Assembly (NCBI RefSeq): GCF_030819175.1
Contig: NZ_JAUTBJ010000002.1
Span: 320,001-384,000 of the forward strand
Origin: Sphingomonas sp. SORGH_AS_0879
GTDB taxonomy: Bacteria; Pseudomonadota; Alphaproteobacteria; Sphingomonadales; Sphingomonadaceae
Length of the DNA stretch: 64,000 nt
Reading direction: 5' to 3'
Below the pieces are notes generated by a model. That model was not told the origin of the DNA. It saw nothing but the letters and a program-made list of their open reading frames with translations, and searched no databases. The position numbers were made by a program, and so were the translations under genes. Shown here one piece after another: positions 40,831 through 45,015 of the stretch. Within the stretch, counting starts at the first letter, position 1. Each line of letters opens with the position of its first letter.

Positions 40831-41832
40831 ATGCATGGATGGATCATTCTCGACAAGCCGCTGGGGCTCGGCTCGACGCAAGGGGTGAGCGCGGTCAAGC
40901 GCGTGTTGCGTCAGGGCGGCTATGGCAAGGGGATCAAGGTCGGCCATGGCGGCACGCTCGATCCGCTGGCGACCGGCGTGCTCCCGATCGCGGTGGGGGA
41001 GGCGACCAAGCTGGCCGGGCGGATGCTCGACAGCGACAAGGTGTATGACTTCACCATCAGCTTCGGCATGCAGACCGCGACGCTGGATGCGGAAGGGGAG
41101 TCGGTCGCGGAGAGCGATGTCCGGCCGACTCGCGCCGCGCTGGAGGCGGTGCTGCCCCGTTTCACCGGGCCGATCGACCAGGTGCCGCCCGCCTATTCCG
41201 CGCTGAAGATCGATGGCGAGCGCGCCTATGACCTCGCCCGGGCGGGGGAAGAGGTGGTGCTGGCGAGTCGCGCGGTGACGATCCATTCGCTCCAATCCTC
41301 CCCAAGCTCGCTTGGGGAGGGGGACCATCGCGTCAGCGATGGTGGAGGGGCGGGACGGACCGGCGATGCCCCTCCACCACGCCCTGCGGGCGCGGTCCCC
41401 CTCCCCGAGCGAGCTCAGGGAGGATTAGAGGAGGCCACCCTTACCGCCCATGTCTCCAAGGGCACCTATATCCGCAGCCTCGCCCGCGACATCGCCCTCG
41501 CACTCGGCACGGTCGGCCATGTCACCATGCTCCGCCGGATCAAGGCGGGGCCGTTCACCCTGGCCCCGGCGATATCGCTGGACAAGTTGAACGAAATGGG
41601 GCAGGCGCGCACCCTTGAACAGATACTCCTGCCGCTGAGGGCGGGGCTGGACGACATCCCGGCTCTTGCTCTCGACCCCGACCAGGCAGGGGCGCTCCGT
41701 CAGGGGCGTGTGCTGGCCGGGATTGCCGTGGACGATGGCCAATATTTCGCGATGCTGGGGGCTATCCCGGTGGCGCTGGTAGAGGCGCTGGACGAAAATG
41801 TCCGGGTCGTTCGTGGTTTCAACCTCGATTAA
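40831..41832 (+). CDS. truB: tRNA pseudouridine-55 synthase with repeat-derived insertion
   Basis: Makes pseudouridine 55 in the T-loop of tRNAs. It has 333 residues. Catalytic Asp44 lies in HGGTLDPLATGVLPIA; other blocks are PPAYSALKIDGERAYDLAR (about 119-137) and KGTYIRSLARDIALALG (from 210). Between IHSL (151-154) and EATLTAHV (201) sit about 45 residues (155-199) encoded by a palindromic family B repeat (41294-41426). They are Gly/Pro/Ser-rich and unlike TruB, where these strands are joined by a short turn. The reading frame is kept, so the enzyme is probably functional. The ATG at 40831 begins the conserved HGWIILDKPLG. Confidence 0.92.
   Translation: MHGWIILDKPLGLGSTQGVSAVKRVLRQGGYGKGIKVGHGGTLDPLATGVLPIAVGEATKLAGRMLDSDKVYDFTISFGMQTATLDAEGESVAESDVRPTRAALEAVLPRFTGPIDQVPPAYSALKIDGERAYDLARAGEEVVLASRAVTIHSLQSSPSSLGEGDHRVSDGGGAGRTGDAPPPRPAGAVPLPERAQGGLEEATLTAHVSKGTYIRSLARDIALALGTVGHVTMLRRIKAGPFTLAPAISLDKLNEMGQARTLEQILLPLRAGLDDIPALALDPDQAGALRQGRVLAGIAVDDGQYFAMLGAIPVALVEALDENVRVVRGFNLD
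41294..41426. repeat. Family B palindromic element inside truB
   Basis: A 133-bp inverted-repeat element. The outer arms AATCCTCCCCAAGCTCGC (41294-41311, continuing to about 41325) and the mirrored GAGCGAGCTCAGGGAGGATT (ending 41426) are near-perfect complements. Inside are smaller hairpins, ACCATCGC-GTCA-GCGATGGT (41324-41343) and GGAGGGGC/GCCCCTCC. Closely similar sequence occurs intergenically at 44848-44902. It is translated in the truB frame without a stop. Confidence 0.88.
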
Positions 41833-42366: not shown

Positions 42367-44707
42367 ATGTTCAATACCAAGAAAGTGGCCATCGAGTGGG
42401 GCGGCAAGACGCTGACCCTCGAAACCGGCAAGGTGGCCCGTCAGGCCGACGGCGCGGTGATCGCGACGCTGGGCGAGACGGTGGTGCTGTGCGCCGTGAC
42501 GGCCGCGAAGACTGTGAAGGAAGGGCAGGATTTCTTCCCGCTGACCGTTCACTATCAGGAGAAGTTCTCGTCGGCGGGCCGCATCCCCGGCGGTTTCTTC
42601 AAGCGCGAGCGTGGCGCGACCGAGCGTGAGACGCTGATCAGCCGCCTGATCGACCGTCCGATCCGCCCGCTCTTCCCCGAAGGTTTCTACAACGAGATCA
42701 ACTGCATCTGCCAGGTGCTCTCGTACGATGGCGAGAATGAGCCCGACATCCTGGCGCTGGTCGCCGCGTCGGCCGCGCTCACCATCTCGGGCGTGCCCTT
42801 CATGGGCCCGATCGGCGCGGCGCGCGTCGGTTACAAGGACGGCGAATATGTCCTGAACCCGACCGATGCCGAAGCGCTGGAAGGCGATCTCGACCTGGTC
42901 GTCGCCGCCACCCACAATGCGGTGATGATGGTCGAATCGGAAGCCAAGGAGCTGTCCGAAGAGGTGATGCTGGGCGCGGTCATGTACGCGCACAAGGCGT
43001 CGCAGCAGATCATCAACGCGATCATCGACCTGGCCGAGCAGGCCGCCAAGGATCCGTGGGAACTGAAGGTCGGCGACGACCAGAAGGCGGTCAAGGCCGA
43101 GCTGAAGAAGCTGATCGGCAAGGATATCACCGCGGCCTACAAGCTGACCGACAAGCAGCAGCGCCAGACCGCGCTGGGCGAGGCCCGCGCCAAGGCGAAG
43201 GCCGCCATGGCCGAGCGGAGCCCGCAGGAGCAGCTTGTCGCCGCCAAGCTCGTCAAGAAGCTGGAAGCCGAGATCGTCCGCACCGCGATCCTGAAGGACG
43301 GCCGCCGCATCGACGGTCGCTCGACCACTCAGATCCGTCCGATCGAGGCCGAGGTTCATTTCCTGCCGCGTTCGCACGGCTCGGCGCTGTTCACGCGCGG
43401 CGAGACCCAGACGATCGCGACCACCACGCTGGGCACCCGCGACGCCGAGCAGATGATCGACGGCCTGAACGGCCTGTCGTACCAGCACTTCATGCTGCAC
43501 TATAACTTCCCGCCCTATTCGGTCGGCGAAGTGGGCCGCTTCGGCGCGCCGGGTCGTCGCGAGATCGGCCATGGCAAGCTGGCGTGGCGCGCGCTGCACC
43601 CGGTGCTGCCGTCGAAGGAGGAATTCCCCTACACCATCCGCGTGACCAGCGACATCACCGAGTCGAACGGCTCGTCGTCGATGGCCACCGTCTGCGGCGG
43701 CTCGCTGTCGCTGATGGATGCGGGCGTGCCGCTGAAGCGTCCGGTCTCGGGCATCGCCATGGGCCTGATCCTGGAAGGCAAGGACTTCGCCGTCCTGTCC
43801 GACATCCTGGGTGACGAGGATCATCTGGGCGACATGGACTTCAAGGTCGCTGGCACCTCCGAGGGCATCACCTCGCTCCAGATGGACATCAAGATCGCCG
43901 GTATCACCGAGGAGATCATGAAGGTCGCGCTGGCGCAGGCCAAGGAAGGCCGCGCGCACATCCTGAACGAGATGAACAAGGCGCTATCCTCGACCCCGGA
44001 CCGAACTGTCGGCGCACGCGCCGCGCATCGAGACGATGACGATCGACAAGTCGAAGATCCGCGACGTGATCGGCACCGGCGGCAAGGTGATACGCGAGAT
44101 CGTCGCCACCACCGGCGCCAAGGTCGATATCGACGACGAGGGCGTCATCAAGATCAGCTCGTCGGACGGTTCGCAGATCGAAGCCGCGATGAACTGGATC
44201 AAGGGCATCGTCGAAGAGGCCGAGGTCGGCAAGATCTACAACGGCAAGGTCGTCAACCTGGTCGATTTCGGCGCGTTCGTGAACTTCATGGGCGGCAAGG
44301 ACGGTCTGGTCCACGTCTCGGAGATCAAGAACGAGCGCGTCGAGAAGGTCTCGGACGTCCTGAGCGAAGGCCAGGAAGTCAAGGTCAAGGTGCTCGAGAT
44401 CGATCCGCGCGGCAAGGTCCGCCTGTCGATGCGCGTCGTCGATCAGGAAACCGGTGCGGAACTGGAGGACAATCGTCCGGCCCGCGAACCGCGTGAACCG
44501 CGTGGTGATCGTGGCCCGCGCGAGGGTGGCCGTGGTCCACGTCGTGACGGCGGTGATCGTGGCGGCGAGCGCGGCGGTGATCGCGGGGGCGAAGGCCGCA
44601 GCGGCCCCCGTCGCGACCGTGGCGACCGTCCCCGTCGTGAAGGTGGCGAACAGGGCGGTTCGTCCGAATTCGCCGCTCCGGCCTTCCTGACCGGCGATCG
44701 CGACTGA
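42367..44707 (+). CDS. pnp: Polyribonucleotide nucleotidyltransferase, split by a +1 frameshift
   Basis: PNPase, the phosphorolytic 3'-5' exoribonuclease of the degradosome. The first frame codes for both RNase PH domains ([58 protein letters not shown]) and ends in an alien Arg/Asp-rich tail at 44496. After [12 protein letters not shown] the true sequence continues in the next frame: [20 protein letters not shown] (KH domain), then [20 protein letters not shown] (S1 domain), a Gly/Arg-rich tail and a stop at 44707. Removing one C from the CCCC run at 43994-43997 restores one 779-residue protein. As PNPase loss is costly, an assembly error is likely; a real mutation would delete KH and S1. 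Confidence 0.9.
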
Positions 44708-44764: not shown

Positions 44765-45015
44765 TTGGGGGGCGGCCCCTCCACCACCCGGCTGCGCCGG
44801 GCGGTGACCCTCCCCATCGGAGATGGAGAGGATTTGGTTCAGCCCATTCCTCCCCAAGCTCGCTTGGGGAGGGGGACCGCCGCAAAGCGGCGGTGGAGGG
44901 GCGGGGACGCTTCGTGGGAAGGTGCTGGCGTGGCCTTCGACTTCGCTCAGGCTGAACGAGTTTGAGGGATAAGGTCTTTACCCACCTCCGCTCGGCCTGA
45001 GCGAAGTCGAAGGCC
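44765..45015. repeat. Family B elements and a family A inverted pair
   Basis: 44765-44815 and 44848-44902 hold two family B units. The second reads TCCTCCCCAAGCTCGC, then a CCGCCGC-AAA-GCGGCGG hairpin and GGAGGGGC, and matches the truB insertion except that the internal hairpin sequence differs while still pairing. Family A copies lie at 44932-44958 and, inverted, 44989-45015. No gene is visible. Confidence 0.82.

Follow-up and report, generated by a model that had tools for sequence, protein, structure and literature searches.

How does a housekeeping gene come to carry, in frame, a palindromic repeat whose relatives lie scattered over the same genome: as a recent insertion, as a structure kept for its own sake, or as the present occupant of a place that many such repeats have used? 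The question is raised by truB in a 64,000-nt stretch of Sphingomonas sp. SORGH_AS_0879 (hereafter the window; positions 320,001 to 384,000 of contig NZ_JAUTBJ010000002.1), where a first-pass annotation, made from the sequence alone, had placed a repeat element inside the coding sequence.

A palindromic element in the truB reading frame

The truB product matches TIGR00431 over residues 2-253 and contains both the TruB_N and the TruB_C_2 domain; tdk lies upstream, and rpsO and pnp lie downstream (Table 1). The annotated element is real, and its bounds agree within a few bases with those proposed for its core (41294-41426). TruB blocks flank it on both sides, the reading frame stays open through it, and it encodes approximately residues 155-200, between VTIHSL and EEATLTAHVSKGTYIR. 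The E. coli enzyme (1R3F) has eight residues at the insert point (alignment ends 158 and 167). D44, Y72, and R219, which we take to be active-site residues, are among the residues invariant in 60 aligned sphingomonad TruBs.

The element is about 140 nt long and possesses MITE-like terminal inverted repeats (37-nt arms). Folded as single-stranded DNA, it reaches -65.3 kcal/mol (z -9.78), and none of 200 shuffled sequences folded as well. Comparison with Rfam assigned it to no known RNA family: all eight matches fall under the gathering score, and the best, to a plant-type microRNA model (40.8 bits, gathering score 168), arises because the element is a long GC-rich hairpin. In the window's pnp (42367-44704), reference residues 2-544 and 545-787 align in different frames, with a break near 43995, and the gene is therefore frameshifted in the sequence or in the assembly.

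Table 1. Features of truB, its palindromic element, and a second copy of the repeat family, in window positions
Feature	Position	Strand	Details
truB, tRNA pseudouridine(55) synthase, host gene of the element	40831..41832	+	333 aa; TIGR00431 207.7 bits; PF01509 and PF16198
Palindromic repeat element, class B, ends AATCCTCCCC...GGGAGGATT	41290..41430		TruB residues ~155-200, in frame; defined by arms, fold, and genome matches
Inverted repeat, left arm	41290..41326	+	37 nt, 89% complementary to right arm
Left terminal hairpin (CCTCCCCAAGC/GCTTGGGGAGG)	41297..41320		100% complementary
Second hairpin (ACCATCGC/GCGATGGT)	41324..41343		100% complementary
Central hairpin (TGGTGGAGGGGC/GCCCCTCCACCA)	41340..41379		100% complementary
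Inverted repeat, right arm	41394..41430	+	37 nt, 89% complementary to left arm
Right terminal hairpin (CCTCCCCGAGC/GCTCAGGGAGG)	41400..41423		91% complementary
Second copy of the family, downstream of pnp	44844..44905	+	87% over query 7-69 (G000:C2:364844-364905)

Dispersed copies and a second intragenic site

BLAST of the element against its own genome gave 94 matches, with the two orientations of a site counted separately; the best non-self copy is 92% identical over query positions 11-141. This dispersal supports the suggestion that the family can be copied or can move. The accompanying statement that it is otherwise intergenic holds for the one further copy that this search placed in the window, after pnp, but does not extend to the genome, where two of the 26 best-scoring distinct sites look intragenic, as judged from GC3 and from an open frame on either side. 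These are truB itself and the linker that joins the mutase domain to the B12-binding domain in methylmalonyl-CoA mutase (G000:C2:913782-913910, locus L002). Palindromic elements of several subtypes occupy this linker, with full-length matches in at least 17 of 114 genomes with a match, among the matches listed; nine linker inserts were examined directly (L323-L328, L332, L333, and L338). The mutase linker is a second, lesser recurrent intragenic site. A variable segment private to truB was also considered and is ruled out for the tested inserts, all of which have dispersed copies.

The same TruB loop is occupied in most sphingomonads

TruB was detected in 195 of the 201 genus genomes and in 294 of 298 genomes (95 of 96 genera) of a family sample that includes Sphingomonas, Sphingobium, Novosphingobium, Sphingopyxis, Erythrobacter, Qipengyuania, Stakelama, and Rhizorhapis. 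We parsed 258 loci (L030-L287) and left out L167, L168, L127, L141, and L154 (two without half the gene, three without a readable motif), so that 253 loci, representing 222 distinct genes, remained. The loop is at least 80 nt long in 164 of these genes, 46-79 nt in five, and at most 45 nt in 53; this occupied share may be somewhat overestimated, because the query carried the insert and the best matches were kept. Of the 195 genus genomes with a match, 149 supplied genes, mostly the better-scoring ones. Frame preservation is partly by construction, since the 258 parsed loci included three in which the frame to SKGTYIR is not open, and these were left out. Outside the loop the protein varies little in length (153-158 aa on the N side and 123-132 aa on the C side, one C part of 84 aa excepted), and no second insertion site within TruB was seen in the sphingomonad genes examined.

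The first-pass annotation had pictured a recent insertion, with an exact gap at this position in most close relatives. The survey overturns both expectations: the same place is filled in 164 of the 222 distinct genes, by sequences that differ and are often unrelated, which rules out a single recent insertion. Conservation of the same segment in sequence across TruB was likewise not found in these 222 genes. The best 20 of 56 plasmid records with TruB homologues span too few bases for an insert. In one genome, which shows 4% contamination, an intact truB is accompanied by another copy that contains a stop codon (L127, G170:C6).

Inserts of at least six repeat families

Palindromy is a general feature of the inserts. 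Fold z was below -3 in 152 of 163 inserts and in 2 of 163 equal-length stretches just upstream, with medians of -8.6 and 0.05, respectively (RNA parameters, 40 shuffles; the one insert of 164 that contains N was left out). The remaining 11 inserts, L187 and L196 among them, are weakly or non-palindromic. As the annotation had noted for the window's copy, the added residues are rich in Gly, Pro, and Ser (16.5%, 15.5%, and 8.9% over the inserts).

On the evidence of their ends and of BLAST linkage, the inserts are of at least six families. With labels partly set by hand, the 222 genes divide into classes B (104), C (35), F (7), T2 (5), T1 (4), S (4), C? (1), a C+B tandem (1), other (3), and short (58). 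Class B has the ends AATCCTCCCC...GGGGAGGATT, class C has CGTCAYCCC...GGGRTGACG, class F has CCCCTTCAGGGG, and class S has ends like CTTCGACAAGCTCAG; the border between B and C rests on these ends because BLAST at 1e-5 links B with 22 C inserts. Composite states were recognized by eye, with C followed by B in tandem in L160 and extra hairpins inside a B element in L138 and L152.

truB among neighboring genes and beyond the family

Internal inserts of at least 20 aa occur in 161 of 221 complete truB genes, all in one place (one gene has a second inserted run three residues further on). The same count gave 0 of 45 for rimP, 0 of 52 for infB, 0 of 93 for rbfA, 0 of 153 for tdk, 0 of 221 for rpsO, and 0 of 73 for pnp, and three of 47 for nusA, where the extra sequence is an acidic tail that is not repeat-like by eye. 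These seven neighboring genes thus lack repeat-like inserts in all 684 complete copies (a count that leaves out 237 incomplete copies and any locus too short for a gene). The flanking DNA (2.05 Mb) contains 117 element sites, and one of the 109 non-edge sites looks intragenic. Element density is 6.8 per 100 kb with an occupied truB versus 3.6 otherwise, a direction favored by the search library, which consisted of truB inserts. A match between the truB class and the class of nearby flank elements was considered and set aside, as agreement is weak and each genome holds several families. In a short-loop Sphingomonas, a class F-related element lies apparently in frame within a 953-codon open frame on the minus strand (L246, 18791-18893).

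The class-wide sample contained 289 genomes, of which 268 gave a TruB. In the listed best-scoring places, TruBs from outside the family exceed the model span by at most 36 nt (by eye), and the two from within it (G214 and G241) exceed it by more. In 80 of 116 further non-family genomes, there are two TruBs whose length is more than 39 nt above the model span, of which one has a low-complexity loop here and the other an insert elsewhere; neither is a palindromic repeat, as judged by eye rather than by folding. Length is thus tolerated more widely, and palindromic occupation is a trait of the family in this sample. Low-complexity sequence lengthens the same loop in other alphaproteobacterial families: L318 has an Ala/Glu-rich segment of about 50 residues, and L320 has an EG run.

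Occupants of the loop are exchanged rapidly

The loop of the Sphingomonadaceae holds unrelated palindromic families, in frame and at one position, and its occupants are exchanged rapidly. Class changes number at least 81 on each of two FastTree trees (222 leaves; mean 104 and minimum 95 under shuffled labels) and 82 on an IQ-TREE tree, so there is phylogenetic signal but exchange is fast. Contracting branches with SH-aLRT below 90 lowers the bound to 65 changes, and contracting those below 95 lowers it to 46. Even when a gain costs three times as much as a loss, the non-B acquisitions of five classes add up to 23-24. The class differs in 15 of 33 sister pairs with support of at least 90, and both members are occupied in six of these. 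For example, L189 (G421) and L199 (G242), which carry the same genus code, are 95.9% identical in DNA before the loop, yet one has a B insert and the other an unrelated F insert. The family of this F insert accounts for 88 matches in G242 (best copy 95%) and 52 in the genome of L189, which makes this a case of recent replacement. Similarly, L054 (B) and L081 (C) are 90.2% identical upstream and have the flank LPHS[PA]L in common.

Subtypes also differ within the window's own clade, where L030-L032 have one B subtype, L033 and L034-L036 have others, and L142 has a short loop. One genome (G065) contains dispersed copies 93-97% identical to the window's truB element, while its own truB element is only 82% identical. 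Parsimony of occupancy takes 39 steps from an occupied ancestor (one or two gains and 37-38 losses) and 41 from an empty one; as the occupied ancestor with many losses fits slightly better, occupants may have been exchanged in place. Nine gene pairs were inspected for target-site duplication, and there was no near-identical empty site among them. Exchange may have proceeded by conversion or by insertion.

A probable landing site in a tolerant loop

The explanation we favor, with a probability of roughly 0.6, is that the TruB loop immediately preceding the conserved SKGTYIR motif serves as a landing site occupied by repeats, which received a founder and was then handed over among families in a loop that is tolerant. 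A class B element would have entered early in the family. Occupants could persist because the loop, probably at the protein surface, would tolerate long hydrophilic peptides rich in Gly and Pro. A resident may later give way to an element that inserts next to or within it, or may be converted by dispersed copies of its own family; deletion of leftovers would produce the short loops; and selection would keep the frame and remove stops, acting little on the peptide. Several findings count against this account. Tolerance alone leaves the choice of this loop unexplained when one of 109 flank sites is intragenic, ancestral occupancy is better by only two steps, near-constant class B junctions would also be given by target specificity, and the stems evolve more slowly than other insert positions, which bare neutrality does not predict.

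The junctions lead to an alternative that we regard as unlikely, namely that a transposase or an ssDNA-based mobilizer recognizes truB sequence or structure and that independent insertions into an empty loop met one target. The right junction distance of class B is 7 nt in 60 of 84 inserts and the left one is 3-4 nt in 65 of 87, and the 3' end of the element falls in a single phase in 75 of 75 inserts in which it was recognized (29 were not), all of which such targeting would explain; the 5' end, where recognized, falls in two of the three phases. Class C junctions, however, are variable, the site is common to at least six families, and an occupied ancestor with one or two gains and many losses is slightly more parsimonious than the empty one that targeting supposes. 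Furthermore, no match to Y1_Tnp (PF01797) was found in the window's own genome, although five of 14 control genomes have one, and a RAYT is rejected as the mobilizer there on this ground.

Little constraint on the peptide, possible upkeep of the stems

The element does make new protein sequence, as the annotation had claimed, but in most sets tested this sequence is under little constraint at the protein level. In the best-sampled clade (nine genes, 36 pairs), pN/pS is 0.80 in the insert and 0.06 in the N part, and the encoded peptide appears nearly unconstrained. Other, smaller sets gave 0.34-5.6 for inserts, and the N part ranged from 0.01 to 0.18 over all sets. The value of 0.34 comes from the window's own close clade and rests on 15 differences, so some protein constraint is possible there.

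Stems were compared in 22 non-overlapping pairs of equal-length inserts, greedily chosen at no more than 30% difference, with the union of both folds taken as stem. Divergence was 0.091 in stems, 0.195 at other insert positions, and 0.248 at fourfold sites of the N part, and both members of a stem pair had changed 33 times against 7.6 expected at random. This suggests some upkeep of the stems at the DNA or RNA level, which may come from weak selection that favors pairing or from conversion by other copies.

A selected nucleic-acid element would account for such upkeep: a hairpin in the truB mRNA or DNA would have a job, for instance in a truB-rpsO-pnp transcript, any strong palindrome would serve, and the peptide would be a bystander. 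The persistence of palindromy while the family changes fits this proposal, as does the presence of an element 325-385 nt downstream of truB in two of 30 short-loop genus loci versus two of 113 occupied ones. Nevertheless, we judge it improbable. The loop is short in 58 of 222 genes, and an element just downstream is missing from 28 of the 30 genus loci with a short loop. Among 250 changed stem pairs, pairing was broken by 151 single and 23 double changes and kept by 52 and 24, so the upkeep is weak, and the deficit of stem changes is smaller in the 13 pairs below 0.26 at fourfold sites (0.064 vs 0.104). Conversion from dispersed copies could also slow the stems and make them covary. We give similarly little credence to the extended form of this proposal, in which the truB loop would be a selected palindrome slot that recruits whichever repeat family is active in the lineage, an interchangeable part of mobile DNA with one conserved role.

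Two further readings have a very slim chance of being right. One ancient insertion followed only by vertical inheritance and divergence would agree with class B being the commonest state, with near-constant junctions; it is contradicted as a full account by the 15 of 33 supported sister pairs that differ in class (six with both members occupied) and by the L199 element, a near copy of a genome-wide family, and it is retained within the landing-site explanation as the founding step. Growth of a low-complexity loop by slippage, for which the simple-sequence loops of L318 and L320 speak, does not explain that 152 of 163 sphingomonad inserts are strong palindromes and that the tested ones have dispersed copies.

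Implications and comparison with known repeat systems

One slot in a housekeeping enzyme is rewritten by mobile-like DNA time after time, each occupant being read in frame. The locus is a natural insertion experiment that has been re-run many times, with dozens of replacements at one position and short-loop relatives as controls. Three questions become testable here: by what route palindromic repeats that lack a known transposase move, why some sites are preferred, and whether repeats that are translated are carried along neutrally or maintained as hairpins of RNA or DNA.

In the literature searched, comprising CC-licensed papers and thus weak evidence, neither a hot spot in a single truB loop nor turnover of many repeat families in one loop was found described. 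truB as a target was noticed earlier, since the available part of PMC3733652 (BMC Genomics 2013) lists REPs inside ORFs that include truB of S. maltophilia, E. lithoralis, and S. alaskensis, and cites RPE-1 in truB of R. conorii. That part describes REPs in genes of the same functional category at different sites, Xanthomonas recB excepted, and names no common truB site. Like the GTAG/CGTC REPs treated there, the repeats studied here lie inside truB, and the class C ends (of the GTCAYCCC / GGGRTGAC kind) resemble the CGTC tag, whereas the window's class B element, with its ends AATCCTCCCC and GGGAGGATT, has neither a GTAG nor a CGTC tag. REPINs, as described in the available parts of PMC3116915 and PMC2817692, are likewise composites of inverted hairpin units with many copies per genome; the window's element differs from the REPIN/RAYT system in that its genome has no Y1_Tnp match and its ends have no GTAG tag.

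Rickettsia palindromic elements (RPEs), according to the available part of PMC2229807, are palindromes of 105-146 bp with in-frame copies within conserved genes and further copies between genes. The window's element is similarly a palindrome of about 100-150 nt in several copies, and in-frame copies in unrelated conserved genes are found in truB and the methylmalonyl-CoA mutase linker. The difference is that here one loop of one gene is filled, in most family genes examined, by several unrelated families that replace one another. Protein-coding palindromes themselves are already known; the new part is the family-wide turnover of many repeat families in one TruB loop.
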